A stretch of DNA of 64,000 nucleotides from Thermogutta terrifontis (lineage in GTDB: Bacteria > Planctomycetota > Planctomycetia > Pirellulales > Thermoguttaceae), in contig NZ_CP018477.1 in NCBI RefSeq assembly GCF_002277955.1, positions 868,001-932,000 on the forward strand. The letters are read 5' to 3'. Made by a program: the position numbers and the translations under genes. Below, in pieces: positions 5,085 to 56,545 of the stretch (the first letter of the stretch is position 1; the number at the start of each line of letters is the position of its first letter). The notes beneath the pieces were generated by a model that worked only from the letters and a program-made list of their open reading frames with translations, was not told the origin of the DNA and ran no database searches.

Positions 5085-6010
5085 CGTGGATATTGCCCGG
5101 ACTTTGAGGACCCGGTTCCACTCAAGGCTGAATCTTCACTAGGACGCATATGTCAGGTCCGTCGGGGTTTCTTCACGTTTTGCCGCGACCACGAAAGCGT
5201 TCCGCTGTTTGGGGAATTCATAAATCGCCCCTACAACGCCGGAGGGACCTGCTTGTCAGGTCCGCCGCTTAACGTTGGATCGTCGATTCCCTTTTGCCGG
5301 GGACTGAAGTCCCGCGCCGAAAGCGGGGCTAAAGCCCCGCACTCCATATGGAGTGCGGCGATTTATCGCCGCTTTTTAGTGAAGGCTTTAGCCTTCACCA
5401 CCTTGCCGTCGGCCCGGATGGCACGACGACGACCCATCGGGGGTGGAACCCGACCCTCCAATCCACACAATGGAGGGACCTTGCTTGTCGGGTCCGATCA
5501 ACACCGCTCGATGACCCATCGCCCTTCGCCGGGCACGACAAGCGTGCCCCTCCGAGCCTTCCGAGGGCCTGCTTGTCACGTCCGCTTTTTGGCTTGCACG
5601 CATGACGGGATATAGACGCGGTTTCACCCGGGCCACGGGATTTGGTGGGTGTAATTTAGGTATTGGATATTGGACCGCGCGGTAGCGGCAATTCATAAAT
5701 CGCCCCTACCAGAATCTGATGACCATGGCCACACTTTATTTCCCGCCACGGCAATTCATCAATCCAGCCAACCGGAATCCCGTTGGCTGGCCCACGCTTC
5801 AAGCACCGTGAACGGATTGCCGCTTCAGTCGGCGGTCAGCCAGCCCGGGTTTTGCCCTTCCACCACGCAGTTCTCGTCCAGCCACCGCTTTGGTGATGGG
5901 TGAAACCCAAATATGGCCGGTTGCGGCGTCCGCGGTGCTGACACATAATGTCTTTGACTTTGTTAGCTTCCTACTGGTGTCGTAAGGGAAAGAGCAAACG
6001 GAGGTGACCG
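5085..6010. other. long intergenic region, mostly composite repeat
   Basis: No gene seen. Bases 5213-5710 are repeat block R1, described separately. Open frames that cross it (5253-5615, 5348-5605, 5388-5696 minus) are translations of palindromic repeats and recur wherever the repeat recurs, so they are not genes. Bases 5711-6000 are unassigned and should hold the promoter for the GH5 gene. Confidence 0.6.
5213..5710 (+). repeat. composite palindromic repeat block R1
   Basis: A near full-length copy of the dispersed repeat. In order: class B half-site ending AAATCGCCCCTAC (5213-5234); class A hairpin GGACCTG-CTTGT-CAGGTCC at 5245-5263 preceded by GGAG; hairpins GGGACT-GA-AGTCCC, GCGGGGCT-AA-AGCCCCGC, the palindrome GCACTCCATATGGAGTGC, GCGGCGAT-TT-ATCGCCGC and GTGAAGGCT-TT-AGCCTTCAC; an inverted class A hairpin GGGCACG-ACAAG-CGTGCCC at 5531-5549; then a distal class B unit at 5681-5710. 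From about 5241 to 5555 it matches both tandem copies at 8713-9350 almost base for base. Confidence 0.9.
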
Positions 6011-8671: not shown

Positions 8672-9718
8672 CCTCGGCGGGGAAGGTGATTCCAGACGAC
8701 GGCGGCCTTTTCGGAGGAACCTGCTTGTCAGGTCCGCCGCTTAACGTTGGATCGTCGATTCCCTTTTGCCGGGGACTGAAGTCCCGCGCCGAAAGCGGGG
8801 CTAAAGCCCCGCACTCCATATGGAGTGCGGCGATTCATCGCCGCTTTTCGGTGAAGGCTTTAGCCTTCACCACCTTGCCGTCGGCCCGGATGGCACGACG
8901 ACGACCCATCGGGGGTGGAACCCGACCCTCCAATCCACACAATGGAGGGACCTTGCTTGTCGGGTCGGATCAACACCGCTCGATGACCCATCGCCCTTCG
9001 CCGGGCACGACAAGCGTGCCCCTCCGACTTTTCGGAGGCACCTGCTTGTCAGGTCCGCCGCTTAACGTTGGATCATCGATTCCCTTTTGCCGGGGACTGA
9101 AGTCCCGGGCCGAAAGCGGGGCTAAAGCCCCGCACTCCATATGGAGTGCGGCGATTCATCGCCGCTTTTTAGTGAAGGCTTTAGCCTTCACAAACTTGCC
9201 GTCGGCCCGGATGGCACGACGACCCATCGGGGGTGGAACCCGACCCTCCAATCCACACAATGGAGGGACCTGCTTGTCAGGTCCGATCGACACCGATCGA
9301 TGACCCATCGCCCTTCGCCGGGCACGACAAGCCTGCCCCTCCGACTTTTCGGAGGCACCTGCTTGTCAGGTCCGCTCTTTGAGTTTTTCGGATCATGGGG
9401 GATTGGAGCGCCTGGTTTTACCCGGGCCGCAGGACGCCGCGGAAGGCGTGTCGCCGCGGGCAAACTGGAGGGGCGGTTTCCTCCACCCCGGTTTGCACGG
9501 GCAATCACCGCTGGATGTCGCCTCTGCGATTGGTTATCGCCCCCAATGGCCAGAAATCCTTGGTCGGTGTGGTGGGCGGTCTATTGTGCTTGTGAGGGGC
9601 AATGGTCCGAAATATATTGGCAGGTGTCGCGAAAGCGGCCGGGGCTTCGCACAGGATTCGATCCGGTGCTTATAGGCACGGGGAAAAACGGTATCTGGGG
9701 AAATTCGGGAGGGCTCTC
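8672..9718. other. intergenic region dominated by tandem repeat block R2
   Basis: No gene is supported. Bases 8705-9375 are two tandem composite repeat copies plus a partial third hairpin. A 215-codon frame at 8656-9303 and a 260-codon frame at 9141-9923 exist only because the repeats lack stops in that frame; they contain the same peptide twice and have no homology I recognise. Bases 9376-9700 are unassigned. Confidence 0.7.
8705..9375 (+). repeat. composite palindromic repeat block R2, tandem duplication
   Basis: Two head-to-tail copies of a unit of about 321 bp (8713-9033 and 9034-9350), then a third class A hairpin (GGCACCTG-CTTGT-CAGGTCC) near 9353-9373. Each copy has the order class A, spacer with CTTAACGTTGGATC, GGGACTGAAGTCCC, GGGGCTAAAGCCCC, GCACTCCATATGGAGTGC, GGCGATTCATCGCC, GAAGGCTTTAGCCTTC, inverted class A. 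The copies differ at few positions; in the second copy the last hairpin reads GGGCACG-ACAAG-CCTGCCC, an uncompensated change. Confidence 0.92.
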
Positions 9719-16394: not shown

Positions 16395-16577
16395 CGGAGG
16401 GGCGTGTTTGTCACGTCCGTATTTTCTCGGAGGGACCCGCTTGTCGGGTCCGATCAACACCAATCGATGCCCCATCGCCCTTCACCGGGCACGACAAGCG
16501 TGCCCCTCCGAACTTCCGGAGGGACCTGCTTGTCACGTCCGGTTTTTGCCGGTAGGGGCGATTCATGAATCCCCAGA
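16395..16577 (+). repeat. composite palindromic repeat block R3 (class A/B only)
   Basis: Four class A hairpins without the class C chain. They are GGGCGTG-TTTGT-CACGTCC (about 16400-16418), GGACCCG-CTTGT-CGGGTCC (16433-16451), an inverted GGGCACG-ACAAG-CGTGCCC (about 16487-16505) and GGACCTG-CTTGT-CACGTCC (about 16522-16540, mispaired). All but the inverted one are preceded by GGAG. A class B half-unit GGTAGGGGCGATTCATGAAT ends the block. Confidence 0.88.
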
Positions 16578-27915: not shown

Positions 27916-28020
27916 GATCATCTCCTCCTTTGGAGTGCGGCGATTTATCGCCTTGGAGTGCGGCGATTTATCGCCGCTTTTTTGAGACGGCTTTAGCCGT
28001 CGCGAAACCGCGTGTGTCGC

Positions 28021-28165
28021 CTGTATTTTCCCGTTTGTGTATTCCTTTGTGTTCTGACGCTCGAATTTTTTTCATTCCGACGCTCGCACTTTTTCATTCC
28101 GACGGTTGTCTTCTTTTGTATTCTGAGGCTTGTATTTTTTATGCTCACGCTTTCATTCTTGCCCC
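28021..28165 (+). repeat. T-rich degenerate tandem repeat (array 1)
   Basis: About six copies of a 20-24 base unit resembling TTTTTCATTCCGACGCTTG, with variants of the last word (GACGCTCG, GACGGTTG, GAGGCTTG). It lies between the hairpins of the first class C module. Confidence 0.75.
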
Positions 28166-28279
28166 ATGTCGCGGGGAGCTAAAGCTCCCGCGCGAAAGCG
28201 GGGCTAAAGCCCCGCACTCCATGGAGTGCGGCGATTCATCGCCGCTTTCCTGAGACGGCTTCAGCCGTCGTGAAACCGT

Positions 28280-28368
28280 GTGTGGGTGCCCGTATTCTCA
28301 CGCTTGCGTATTCTTTTGTCTTCTAACGCTTGTATTTTTTTATTCCGACGCTTGAATTTTGCCTCACG
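28280..28368 (+). repeat. T-rich degenerate tandem repeat (array 2)
   Basis: Shorter array of the same unit inside the second module, four copies ending CACGCTTG, TAACGCTTG, CGACGCTTG and similar, separated by TTTT-rich spacers. Confidence 0.7.
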
Positions 28369-28447
28369 CTGCGGGGAGCTAAAGCTCCCGCGCGAAAGCG
28401 GGGCTAAAGCCCCGCACTCCAAAGGGCGATTTCTCGACTTCCTGTTT

Positions 28448-29035
28448 TCACCACTCAGGTGCCACGTCGAAGTCATCGACTACGTGAAGACGGTCTGTCT
28501 TCAATCCATAGATAGTGTGCACGTGGGCGGGTTTCGCTGTCGTTTCGAACCATTGTGCCGAGCACCACGGGTAATGGGAGGCGATGCGTACAAGTCCATG
28601 TTTTACCGGATTTTGGTGTGTGTAGCAGAGCCTCGCGAAATAGGACTTTTGATATGTCAACCTTACTTCCCAGTAGTTATGCCAAACGCGTCGATGTGAA
28701 AGTCCATCACAGCGATTAACCCAGACGGCGGTGCGGCCATGGACGAGCCGAATCAGTTCCCGAAGCGTCTCGCCACTTTGACTACCAGGCGGAGCGTGAG
28801 CGACGAAGTGATAATGGTTAGAAAAAACCGCCCAAGCTTCCAGTTCCCAATTCAAATCACTTGCCACCGTAAGTAGGGTATCGCGGAGATAGCGCAGGCG
28901 TTCAGCTCCTCTGAAGATGTTCTCTTTACCGTGAGTTGCAGCGGTAACGAAATAGGTGCCGTGCTCTGAGAGTTCATGAAGGGGCGCGTGTGGCCACGAG
29001 GCGCGAGAGTTAACTGTGTCATCGTACGAACTCAC
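28448..29035 (-). CDS. REP-associated tyrosine transposase (RAYT, Y1/HUH, IS200-related)
   Basis: Single-strand DNA nuclease of the Y1 transposase superfamily that binds and cleaves REP hairpins. 195 residues from GTG 29035 (GAGG about 9 bases upstream). Features: N-terminal GTYFVTAATHGKENIF, HUH-type metal site H74-Y-H76-F in WAVFSNHYHFVAH, and the nucleophile candidate Tyr138 in CYTHQNPVKHGLV, the usual RAYT layout. An IS200 transposase is shorter and lacks the WCS-rich tail. It has no terminal repeats of its own; both sides carry class C repeats (27931-28422 and 29091-29427). No frameshift, so it may be active. Confidence 0.92.
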   Translation of the reverse strand: MSSYDDTVNSRASWPHAPLHELSEHGTYFVTAATHGKENIFRGAERLRYLRDTLLTVASDLNWELEAWAVFSNHYHFVAHAPPGSQSGETLRELIRLVHGRTAVWVNRCDGLSHRRVWHNYWEVRLTYQKSYFARLCYTHQNPVKHGLVRIASHYPWCSAQWFETTAKPAHVHTIYGLKTDRLHVVDDFDVAPEW

Positions 29036-29090: not shown

Positions 29091-29427
29091 TGGAGTGCGG
29101 CGATTTATCGCCGCTTTTTTGAGACGGCTTTAGCCGTCGTGAAACCGCGTGTGTCGCCTGCATTTTCCCGTTTGTGTATTCCTTTGTGTTCTGACGCTCG
29201 AATTTTTTTCATTTCGACGCTTGTCTTCTTTTGTCTTCTGACGCTTGATTTTTTCACTAATCCTTGCCTTCTTTTGCATTCTGACGCTTGAATTCTTTGT
29301 CTTGTGACACTTGTATTTTTTTCATTCCGACGCTTGCATTTTTTCATTCCGATGCTTGCATTCTTGCCTCGTGCTGCGGGGAGCTAAAGCTCCCGCGCGA
29401 AAGCGGGGCTAAAGCCCCGCACTCCAT
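29091..29427 (+). repeat. composite repeat block R5, right of the RAYT gene
   Basis: A third class C module in the same orientation as R4. Bases 29091-29221 match 27954-28084 with about three mismatches by eye. Hairpins GCGGCGAT-TT-ATCGCCGC and GACGGCT-TT-AGCCGTC are followed by the longest T-rich array, then GGGAGCT-AA-AGCTCCC and GCGGGGCT-AA-AGCCCCGC, ending CCGCACTCCA at 29427. Confidence 0.92.
29160..29370 (+). repeat. T-rich degenerate tandem repeat (array 3, longest)
   Basis: Eight or so units of about 23 bases, consensus near TTTTTCATTCYGACGCTTG. Unit ends read GACGCTCG, GACGCTTG, GACGCTTG, ATCCTTG, GACGCTTG, GACACTTG, GACGCTTG, GATGCTTG. No constant spacer or flanking cas gene, so not CRISPR. 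Confidence 0.8.
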
Positions 29428-40112: not shown

Positions 40113-40833
40113 GAGGTTTTACTGGGATCTCAATCTTTCTGGGGGGTATTACACCGGACCGGCCATGAAAGCGCCGCTCCGTTGAAATAAAAGCGTTTCC
40201 CGTTCGCTTTCACCATCGCGTCCGCTTACTCAATGATAGGCGCGCGGAGTAGGGTTGGCGAACGTGGAATGGCCTGGGAGGCAGGCTTTCCCGGCTAAAC
40301 AACGCACATTCGCCCGAATCCGAGGAATCGCCAGTTTTGCAAAAACCTGCGAGATGTGATGGGGCACAATGCATCGTAGGGGCGATTAACAAATCGCCCC
40401 TACCGGTGAACAGTTGTTGTGCGCGTCCGAGAAAGAACCTAATGTGGAGGGCCACGCTTGTCGTACCCGGTGTCAGTTAACCATCTGATGTCAAACCTGG
40501 TAGGGGCAATTCATGAATTGCCCCTACCGGTGAACCCATGTTGTGTCCGTTAGCGAAAAACGTGATTCGGAGGGGCACGCTTGTCGTGCCCGGCGAAGGG
40601 GGATGGGTCATCGATCGGTGTTGATCGGACCCGACAAGCGGGTCCCTCCGAGGTAGGTTCGTCCCGATTTCCAACACACGGACCCCGACGAGGATCGGGG
40701 CGTTGAGGCCAGCAATTGGCAGGGCAATCGTTCGCCCATCGTCTTCGGTTCGGAACCTGGGATGAGTACGAGGACGAACGGAAACCTCCCAAAAGAGGCG
40801 GCCACGGACCGGCGATCATCTCCACTTGAACAT
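40113..40833. other. intergenic region with repeat block R6
   Basis: No gene seen between metH and the PEP-CTERM gene. Repeat block R6 lies at 40376-40650. Bases 40651-40833 are unique and unassigned. Confidence 0.6.
40376..40650 (-). repeat. composite palindromic repeat block R6 (class A and B)
   Basis: Class B GTAGGGGCGATT-aaca-AATCGCCCCTAC (40377-40404), class B perfect 30-base palindrome at 40499-40528 with arms GGTAGGGGCAATTCA, class A GGGCACG-CTTGT-CGTGCCC near 40582-40600, and inverted class A GGACCCG-ACAAG-CGGGTCC near 40628-40646. The class A/class A pair here recurs in block R7 with nearly the same spacer. Confidence 0.88.
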
Positions 40834-41790: not shown

Positions 41791-42851
41791 GGCTGACCTC
41801 CTCCAGGAATCAAGAACCGTTGACGACTGCCAACTTCCTCTAACGCCGATTCACCCATTCAAATCGGAAGCAACGGGTAAGCAAACGCACCGCCCCAGTT
41901 CCGACCGCCTCGATCCGAAGGAGCAAGCGCCCGTTACCGCGAGTGCCCTCCCGACTTCCGCCGTGCCGACTCGAAACCCGTTGCGAAAAAACCGTGTCGG
42001 CACAATCACTGGCCTTATCTTAATCACCCGAATTCAAAAATCAACTCCGGACCGTGCAAATTTGGCGGGTATTATGTCCTATTCGGTCAGATAAAAGTGG
42101 GGGTCTCGGTAACTGTCCGGGACGGGAAAGCCTACCGACTCATCCCCACATTTTGTGAGGATCCGCGAGAGGCCAAGGTCTTGCAGGGGCAATTCTTGAA
42201 TCGCCCCCATCGGTCATCGTTGTGCGATCTGGGCCCAGGGCAGGGCGGTGAAGGCTAAAGCCTTCACCAAAAAGCGGCGATGAATCGCCGCACTCCATAA
42301 ATCGCCGCACTCCATGGAGTGCGGGGCTTTAGCCCCGCTTTCGGCGCGGGACTTCAGTCCCCGCGGAAAGGCAATGGATTGTCCAACGTCGAAAAGCGGA
42401 CGTGACAAGCACATCCCTCCGAGTATGCGGACCTGACGAGCGGGTCCCTCCGAAAAGTCGGAGGGGCACGCTTGTCGTGCCCGGTGAAGGGGGATGGGTC
42501 ATCGATCGGTGTTGATCGGACCCGACAAGCGGGTCCCTCCATGTGCGGCAGCGGCAATTCATGAATGGCCCCTACCGAAATCGGAGCCACTTGGCCGTGC
42601 TACCATGCGTTGCAGGCACGATTCATGGATCACCCCTACCTTAGCCTAAGTGCGCCACGGGGTGGAAGCTGCCTCTCAGGGCCGCTTCCTAACACCAAAC
42701 GGGTCACCGCCAGACGGTGCCGATGTGGGATACCCAATCGAGCGGCGGCGCGATAAATTGAGCGTTTTCGGGGCCAATCTTCAGAACCCGCACGGGCGCC
42801 TGATTTTTCTGGATTCTTTCCGATTTCCGCAATTTCCGGTCTTAACCAGCC
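41791..42851. other. long intergenic region with repeat block R7
   Basis: Divergent spacer between the PEP-CTERM gene and pheS. Repeat block R7 (42185-42578) is the only structure recognised. Short frames at 41789-42094 and 42650-42859 have no family features. The pheS promoter should lie in 42580-42850. Confidence 0.6.
42185..42578 (-). repeat. composite palindromic repeat block R7 (reverse orientation)
   Basis: Holds all three classes and reads in the opposite direction to R1 and R2. From low to high coordinates: class B half-site; GTGAAGGCT-AA-AGCCTTCAC; GCGGCGAT-GA-ATCGCCGC; GCACTCCATGGAGTGC; GCGGGGCT-TT-AGCCCCGC; GGGACT-TC-AGTCCC; class A pairs including GGGCACG-CTTGT-CGTGCCC at 42464-42482; and a class B unit near 42550-42578. 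Confidence 0.9.
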
Positions 42852-52891: not shown

Positions 52892-53200
52892 CCGGGCACG
52901 ACAAGCGTGCCCCTCCGAAATAATCCGGGCCGTTCCAGAATAATCGCGGAGGGACCTACGTGTCAGGTCCACATACTCGGAGGGACGTGCTTGTCACGTC
53001 CGCATATTCGGAGGGACGTGCTTGTCACGTCCGCTTTTCGGCGTTGGACAATCCATTGCCTTTCGGCAGGGACTGAAGTCCCGCGTGGAAAGCGGGGCTA
53101 AAGCCCCGCACTCCATGGAGTGCGGCGATTCATCGCCGCTTTTCGGTGAAGGCTTTAGCCTTCACAACCTTGCCGTCGGGCAGGACGGAATCGGGTGATC
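52892..53200 (+). repeat. composite palindromic repeat block R8
   Basis: Inverted class A GGGCACG-ACAAG-CGTGCCC directly at the gene end, then class A GGACCT-ACGTGTC-AGGTCC (52953-52970 region, unusual loop), GGACGTG-CTTGT-CACGTCC at 52983-53001 and an identical one about 30 bases on. The class C chain follows with GGGACT-GA-AGTCCC, GGGGCT-AA-AGCCCC, GCACTCCATGGAGTGC, GGCGAT-TC-ATCGCC and GAAGGCT-TT-AGCCTTC. Confidence 0.9.
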
Positions 53201-56265: not shown

Positions 56266-56545
56266 GTGGTAGGGGCAATTCATGAATTGCCCTTACCGGA
56301 ATTGCGCCTATCGGTTCATGGTCAATCCACCCGAATAGTCGGAGCGCAAACGGTGAAATGGATTAGAACGTGCCGTCAGAAGGAGGCTCGTTGGGAAAAT
56401 CCTTCAGAGGGGCACGCTCGTTGTGCCCAGTGAAAGGGATGGATGATCAAACCTACAACGGCGGACCTTACAAGCAGGTCCCTCCAAAAGCGGACCTGAC
56501 AAGCAGGTCCCTCCGAATATGGACGTGACGAGCAGGTCTCGCCGG
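56266..56545. repeat. composite palindromic repeat block R9 (class A and B)
   Basis: Class B GGTAGGGGCAATTCATGAAT plus TGCCCTTACC (56269-56298, one mismatch). Degenerate class A GGGCACG-CTCGT-TGTGCCC near 56409. Inverted class A GGACCTT-ACAAG-CAGGTCC, GGACCTG-ACAAG-CAGGTCC (56492-56510), and a decayed GGACGTG-ACGAG-CAGGTCT. Confidence 0.82.

Follow-up and report, generated by a model that had tools for sequence, protein, structure and literature searches.

A RAYT of Thermogutta terrifontis, its candidate cognate repeats, and a clade of related enzymes accompanied by GGA(G/C)T-tagged hairpins

The window analyzed here, a stretch of 64,000 nucleotides of the Thermogutta terrifontis genome, contains a gene for a REP-associated tyrosine transposase (RAYT) amid three classes of palindromic repeats, A, B and C. 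This raises the question of which of these repeats the enzyme acts on, and by which guide word it would recognize them. Our analysis makes it probable, in our judgement by a comfortable measure, that the locus is a REPtron belonging to a RAYT clade that reads GGA(G/C)T, not GTAG, with class C as the cognate repeat and classes A and B as separate families. The observed and computed results on which this reading is built are family membership, the predicted fold, the association of a tag with related genes, the structure of the clade, the intergenic location of the repeats and unit-sized differences between sister species.

The gene at the center of the locus is:

28448 to 29035, minus strand: RAYT (HUH/Y1 REP-associated tyrosine transposase), 195 amino acids, with H74-Y75-H76 and Y138

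The ORF has a GTG start, lacks internal stops and is intact, and its translation carries the motifs NHYHF and CYTHQNPVKHG. It matches the Pfam family Y1_Tnp with 25.9 bits (cut-off 23) and the NCBIfam equivalog NF047646 (REP_Tyr_transpos) with 83 bits (cut-off 80); the latter match was found in all 36 sequences examined of the 64 that make up the clade delineated below. A profile of that clade, run against solved structures, retrieved E. coli TnpAREP (4er8; E = 8.5 × 10−11) as the sole protein at E ≤ 0.01, and a fold search with the predicted model of the window RAYT (pLDDT 84) ranked 4er8 first (E = 7.2 × 10−10), with 22% identity in the fold alignment. H74, H76 and Y138 are invariant across 28 aligned rows. 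In the genome, a single contig of 4.81 Mb, the gene is the sole Y1_Tnp match, and its sequence matches only itself. Thus, the single Y1/HUH transposase of REP-associated type recognized in a preliminary description of this DNA is borne out: the protein combines a Y1 HUH domain, HuH motif and catalytic tyrosine with single-copy status and flanking REPs that recur elsewhere. An IS200/IS605 transposon was considered and rejected, as such elements show multiple near-identical autonomous copies as opposed to one. A search of plasmids gave a sole match, at 25% identity. We infer from the sequence that the protein could be catalytically competent and mobile.

The gene differs from its surroundings in composition, with a GC3 of 0.54 versus 0.66–0.72 in five other genes of the window. 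In the tree described below it groups with rows from Acidobacteriota with moderate support (83/90), and a close RAYT is absent from the seven other genomes of the host family within the genome sample examined. Together, these three features make a horizontal gain likely, and the gene was probably acquired in this way.

The RAYT is enclosed by class C modules, as had been described before: those at 27955–28220 and 28223–28420 lie on one side and that at 29092–29425 on the other. Each module consists of two units that face each other with their tags outward, and each unit runs from the tag GGAGT through hairpin 1 (GCGGCGATTTATCGCCGC or GCGGGGCTTTAGCCCCGC, with small variants) and a T-rich spacer to hairpin 2:

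27932 to 27954, plus strand: partial class C unit seen in the sequence, with tag GGAGT and a shortened hairpin 1
27955 to 28001, plus strand: class C REP unit; tag GGAGT 27955–27959, hairpin 1 27960–27977, T run, hairpin 2 27986–28001; terminator-like by pattern
28174 to 28220, minus strand: class C REP unit; hairpin 2 28174–28189, hairpin 1 28198–28215, tag (ACTCC) 28216–28220
28223 to 28269, plus strand: class C REP unit; tag 28223–28227, hairpin 1 28228–28245, hairpin 2 28254–28269
28374 to 28420, minus strand: class C REP unit; hairpin 2 28374–28389, hairpin 1 28398–28415, tag 28416–28420; 27 bases from the end of the RAYT ORF
29092 to 29138, plus strand: class C REP unit; tag 29092–29096, hairpin 1 29097–29114, hairpin 2 29123–29138; 56 bases from the RAYT start; terminator-like by pattern
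29379 to 29425, minus strand: class C REP unit; hairpin 2 29379–29394, hairpin 1 29403–29420, tag 29421–29425

A pattern scan of the window found no class A or class B repeat beside the RAYT.

We then counted the repeats across the whole genome, a check that the preliminary description had proposed. The strict class C pattern, TGGASTGCGN{4,14}CGCTTT, has 198 matches (98 + 100); class A (GGAG plus GGRCNYG-CTTGT-CRNGYCC) has 508 (252 + 256); and class B (GTAGGGGCAATTCATGAATTGCCCCTAC, a palindrome tagged with GTAG at each end, GTAG...CTAC) has 211 (114 + 97), many of its sites being counted on both strands because it is nearly palindromic. The reversed patterns gave 0 + 0 for each class. A looser class C pattern yielded 164 + 203 matches against a background of 83 + 54. 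In a sample of 464 kb (about 9.6% of the genome), comprising the window and 20 evenly spaced 20-kb samples, none of the 126 strict matches, which fall in 33 blocks, lies inside a gene called by codon usage (77% of bases coding), a count that addresses the earlier proposal to test whether the repeats are exclusively intergenic. A cruder caller that accepts any long ORF places 38 of the same 126 inside ORFs; the window matches so placed (5326–5553 and 8798–9284) are outside all genes of the codon-usage caller. The repeats thus display the traits of REPs, namely high copy number, intergenic location by the codon-usage caller, palindromic structure and arrangement in inverted pairs. Five of the seven other class C blocks listed include at least one back-to-back pair with the tags 2–4 bases apart, with class A and some class B units alongside.

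With the strict patterns and the codon-usage caller, the nine intergenic blocks reported earlier for the window are recovered, two of them beside the RAYT. The other seven, given without a strand as a whole (plus and minus signs mark the units), are:

5241 to 5553: intergenic repeat block A+ C- C+ A-
8798 to 9342: intergenic repeat block C- C+ A- C- C+ A+ A-
16429 to 16540: class A block, intergenic
40376 to 40649: intergenic block of two class B palindromes and two class A units
42250 to 42540: intergenic block of hairpin 2 and C- C+ A+ A-
52894 to 53163: intergenic block A- A+ A+ C- C+ and hairpin 2; the C- unit (30 bases, 53086–53115) is absent from the aligned site of a congener (G297)
56269 to 56514: intergenic block B+ A-; in the same congener an additional class A unit of 29 bases stands in tandem at about 56460

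Just downstream of the block at 52894–53163 lies a fluoride riboswitch (RF01734; 53348–53410, plus strand; 54.9 bits versus a gathering score of 34). An ARAGORN call of a tRNA-Leu (caa) at 9218–9307 on the minus strand, inside a class A/C block, is probably a false one prompted by the palindromic repeats. Along the contig, the repeats are concentrated in the first 1 Mb: the forward class C matches listed, a hand-picked set reaching to 2.38 Mb, number 21, 26, 10, 12 and then 2, 1, 2, 3, 1 and 1 per 250 kb, and 68 of the 93 sample matches to all seven patterns fall within the first 4 of the 20 samples.

One scan of genome contigs with the RAYT returned 67 related loci. Sixty-three of these (L002–L064) code for proteins with 41–64% identity to the window RAYT and come from Verrucomicrobiota, Planctomycetota, Lentisphaerota, Kiritimatiellota, Hydrogenedentota, Acidobacteriota and unassigned bins, along with one bin labelled Proteobacteria; the remaining four (26–30% identity) belong to KSB1 and Calditrichota. 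The idea of a system particular to planctomycetes is therefore not upheld, since the close loci span several phyla and the window copy itself sides with Acidobacteriota. The flanks of the close loci are marked by one word: GGA[CG]T stands directly before a stem of at least six pairs at 60 of the 63, with 211 matches. Other words before hairpins, namely GTAG (6 loci, 7 matches), GTGG (4), GTAGT (1) and GGAG followed by A, C or G (4), are rare; scrambled control words occur at 2–10 of the 63 loci, and GTAG, GTGG and GGAG plus A, C or G are at this background level. When the stem starts with GC and has at least five pairs, a GGAST tag is found at 62 of the 63 loci, the sole close locus lacking a tagged class C-type hairpin being L030. 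A looser count over all 67 loci gave GGAST at 64 (282 matches) versus 13–29 (18–34 matches) for five scrambled five-letter tags; four-letter words, more prone to chance matches, gave 24–59 loci in this count, and in two of the 64, L068 and L030, none of the hairpins begins with GC. Among 204 distinct tagged units, 188 have a T immediately before the tag, and hairpin 1 is followed by T at the first, second and third positions in 180, 178 and 192, respectively. The stem sequence varies among genomes, with the tag, the GC start and mostly the TTT end held constant. As for the other classes, strict patterns of A and B have no match in the flanks of the 63 close loci, and a relaxed class A pattern has one (L061).

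A tree of 83 RAYTs places all 64 rows with the label GGAST (the window RAYT and L002–L064) on one side of a branch with support of 97/97, and none of 500 label shuffles was as tightly clustered; here L002–L064 carry the label by default, L030 included though it lacks such a hairpin, and the remaining labels, GTAG, GTAGT and GTGG among them, were given by visual inspection. Seven rows (L018, L023, L027, L036, L052, L062 and L102) have in-frame stops, entered as X. RAYTs on other branches are flanked by hairpins with GTAG (e.g., L087, L088 and L093), GTGG (L090 and L105) or GTAGT (L076 and L082), or by no recognizable tag, and the other RAYTs of the host's taxonomic class mostly show GTAG, GTGG or GTAGT where tagged hairpins occur. 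GGA(G/C)T hairpins at 62 of the 63 loci, no strict class A or B match there, and a single clade set against differently tagged RAYTs together make class C the likely cognate REP of the window RAYT. The view that the palindromes are the REPs of this enzyme is therefore supported for class C, as its probable REPs, and lacks support for A and B; either of the latter as its cognate was rejected as the main reading. With GGA(G/C)T as the foot word in place of the conserved GTAG/GTGG, class C and its relatives fall outside the GTAG REP superfamily.

How might such an enzyme come to read a different word? For the E. coli enzyme, PMC6006769 counts Q95, E100, H101 and R104 among the residues located at the GTAG guide and regards what W94 does there as unclear; section 23 of PMC8266576 mentions Q95, D100 and R104, and H101 as a GTAG-contact residue is taken from PMC6006769 alone. 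Aligned in E. coli numbering, 63 of the 64 clade rows keep W94 and 63 have E or D at 100. At position 95, H or F is present in 54 rows and Q in 6; position 101 is T in 59 rows and V in the window RAYT; and position 104 is T in 61. By comparison, position 101 is H in all eight GTAG-tagged tree rows and in E. coli. L080, on a long branch outside the clade, combines T101 with GGAGT hairpins. When the comparison is widened to 68 rows, some of them already in the tree and some genes being counted twice (e.g., L082/L099 and L087/L100), 15 of 18 H101 rows have GTAG hairpins versus 3 of 18 for a control word; GTAG hairpins also accompany six of eight further H101 RAYTs that had no part in the tree comparison. 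R101 is less uniform, with GTAG or GTAGT in 8 of 21 rows and GTGG or nothing in the others; a prediction that R101 goes with GTAGT failed, the KSB1/Calditrichota RAYTs L065–L068 being R101 with GTAG. Outside the clade, T101 accompanies GGAGT hairpins in only one of four RAYTs, and L077, L084 and L085 lack any tested tag. The pattern, a correlation across few independent events, suggests that residue 101 is a specificity switch for the tag, and this residue may take part in reading the second tag base. A bolder version, which we hold tentatively and with slightly more doubt than belief, is that the whole clade, spanning PVC bacteria, Hydrogenedentota and Acidobacteriota, switched its guide from GTAG to GGA(G/C)T through H101T, R104T and replacement of Q95 by H or F, with L080 as a possible second independent occurrence.

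In the reading that we favor, the single-copy RAYT would bind class C hairpins folded in single-stranded DNA, read the GGAST word just 5' of hairpin 1, use its HUH metal site and Tyr138 to cleave a dinucleotide close by, and join the cut strand elsewhere, by which non-autonomous class C REPs would spread between genes. Classes A and B would be separate REP families in common intergenic blocks, their own RAYTs being missing or not yet recognized. For the window RAYT, binding, cutting, the cut site and mobility are proposed by analogy: according to PMC8266576, single-stranded REPs are what TnpAREP enzymes cleave, and in one GTAG enzyme the dinucleotide at which cleavage occurs varies with the guide word in the manner expected from pairing. 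By the same analogy, the window RAYT most likely reads GGAST on class C hairpins. We looked for a trace of such pairing in 204 units from 62 loci, 14 of which have both GGAG and GGAC tags. No flanking base convincingly tracks the G or C at the fourth tag position, the best three of 20 columns being those with 4, 7 and 8 of 500 within-locus shuffles; as no flanking base clearly follows GGAG or GGAC, the pairing rule is unconfirmed here. Should pairing with the guide word indeed decide where the enzyme cuts, natural GGAG elements would be expected to differ from GGAC elements in the dinucleotide that is cleaved.

Next, we examined the co-occurrence of gene and repeats in 297 genomes of the host's class that are at least 85% complete, taking matches above 150 bits as clade RAYTs. 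Seven genomes have one. An eighth (G153) has a broken remnant (L089; 44% identity over residues 126–187, one stop), with GGAST hairpins nearby. At least six strict class C copies are present in 23 of the 297 genomes: five of the seven with a clade RAYT versus 18 of the 290 without (p = 3.4 × 10−5). The association is significant but loose. Accordingly, the co-occurrence anticipated in the preliminary description is seen statistically, but 18 genomes without a clade RAYT hold 6–118 copies. Across those 18 and four more genomes, a search with the clade profile found no clade RAYT, the best match (110.9 bits) being of the GTAGT type. Among 30 loci around other RAYTs of those genomes, only L108 has a GGAGT class C-type hairpin (a single one, about 1.3 kb away); within 400 bases, a further hairpin at this locus is preceded by GGACT. 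Thus, either these genomes keep the repeats in the absence of the gene, or their assemblies have lost it. Conversely, G120 and G246 have a clade RAYT and no copy of the strict pattern, and tagged hairpins flank their RAYTs (L071 and L070), so the strict pattern misses some REPs. Many repeats without such a RAYT had been named beforehand as what would speak against the pairing, and on this point the outcome is mixed: G238, with 118 copies, and the congener G297, with all three classes (265 class A, 65 class B and 60 class C matches), have no such RAYT that we could find, and both are drafts, of 20 and 1120 contigs, respectively. G297 has no Y1 match at all, and its contig with the RAYT-neighboring gene ends before the RAYT site; its congeners G298 and G299 have one Y1 match each. 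No empty site was obtained from these three genomes: G299 has no match, and the contigs of G297 and G298 end or fail to bridge. In G238, by eye, about six of ten GGAGT inverted pairs (L181–L190) have mutually complementary outer sequences that differ among copies (e.g., L187 and L189), as if the elements sat centrally in older palindromes.

Two repeat blocks could be aligned between this genome and G297, and each differs by one unit: the class C unit at 53086–53115 is extra here, and the class A unit at about 56460 is extra in G297. Single units have been gained or lost between these sister species, in either direction; at 53086–53115, TGG stands on both sides, making a deletion as possible as an insertion. 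These differences bear on the idea that the class C repeats are relics, the RAYT being silent or domesticated for some other task and present changes being due to recombination and to slippage during replication. A REP family can persist after its RAYT has gone. Slippage or deletion is compatible with differences of unit size and with the TGG microhomology at the 30-base one, genomes do retain repeats without a detected RAYT, and section 3 of PMC8266576 likens tnpAREP genes more to housekeeping than to transposase genes. Against this, the gene is intact and its catalytic residues are conserved without exception in the alignment, and we regard the relic explanation as unlikely.

Still less probable, in our estimate, is that the one RAYT serves A, B and C as parts of a single composite system. 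The three classes do occupy common blocks, are all missing from G298 and G299 and all present in G297, and share a genome in which only one Y1 gene was found; the class A foot, GGAG, is also close to GGAST. However, the lack of strict A and B matches at the close loci and of either class beside the window RAYT argues against it, as does class B, which has GTAG at both ends: RAYTs flanked by GTAG or GTAGT have, with few exceptions, H or R at position 101, not T or V. The ranges differ as well. Of 40 genomes searched for class A, only this one and G297 contain it, set against the 23 of 297 with GGAST repeats in at least six copies, and among the genomes and loci examined we found no RAYT with flanks of the class A or B type.

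That the repeats are kept as bidirectional transcription terminators or mRNA-stabilizing hairpins, with the RAYT an incidental neighbor, is very improbable, for despite the T run after hairpin 1, two terminator-like class C units and the absence of matches from codon-usage genes, those two (of six full units at the RAYT locus) compare with 3.0 expected by shuffling, the 30 blocks that have called genes at both edges (5 convergent, 9 divergent and 16 tandem) do not depart from all gene pairs (p = 0.22), and hairpins preceded by the tag adjoin 62 of 63 related RAYTs from several phyla. The repeats may have a secondary role as terminators.

Returning to the REPtron reading, the closest known counterpart is the E. 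coli TnpAREP/REP system (RAYT group 2, subclass 2.2; 4er8), which shares the HUH/Y1 fold, the retained W94 and E/D100, a single-copy gene flanked by REPs in both orientations and the intergenic location of the REPs. It differs in using GTAG, where the window system has GGAST with one base before the stem, and in Q95, H101 and R104, in place of which most clade rows have H/F, T (V in the window RAYT) and T. Subclass 2.8, defined in PMC6006769 by NHYH, W[YH] and YIHYNP and noted there to have relatives in other phyla, resembles the window RAYT in NHYH and WH; by that description, through which alone we compare them, its REPs have GT[AG]G, unlike the GGAST here. Class B (GTAG...CTAC) has the layout of the double-foot REPs of subclass 2.4 (PMC6006769, section 13), but unlike in those, the sole Y1 gene found in the genome is the window RAYT, with no class B beside it. 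The TIR-associated tyrosine transposases (TIRYT; PMC3733652, section 16) are likewise Y1 genes flanked by non-GTAG inverted repeats, some of which form families, and several are from Acidobacteria; as described there, their repeats are long terminal inverted repeats, some with GGGGWSAS, in contrast to the short tagged hairpins here, and the two groups might overlap. GGAG, which the preliminary description took for a known REP word, does not occur in the main text of the three REP papers searched for it, and among the matches listed from open papers in PubMed Central we found no prior description of a GGAST-tagged RAYT clade. We conclude that the RAYT–REP pair at this locus is real; such pairing is already known, and the clade with the GGAST tag is a variant of it. 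Its hairpins add a REP type in bacterial groups for which PMC3733652, PMC6006769 and PMC8266576, in the parts consulted, list few. Further, a clade with a different guide word at 62 of 63 loci offers natural variants of enzyme and substrate for comparison with GTAG pairs, and this comparison, which names the residues to swap, amounts to a natural experiment on how RAYTs choose their DNA.
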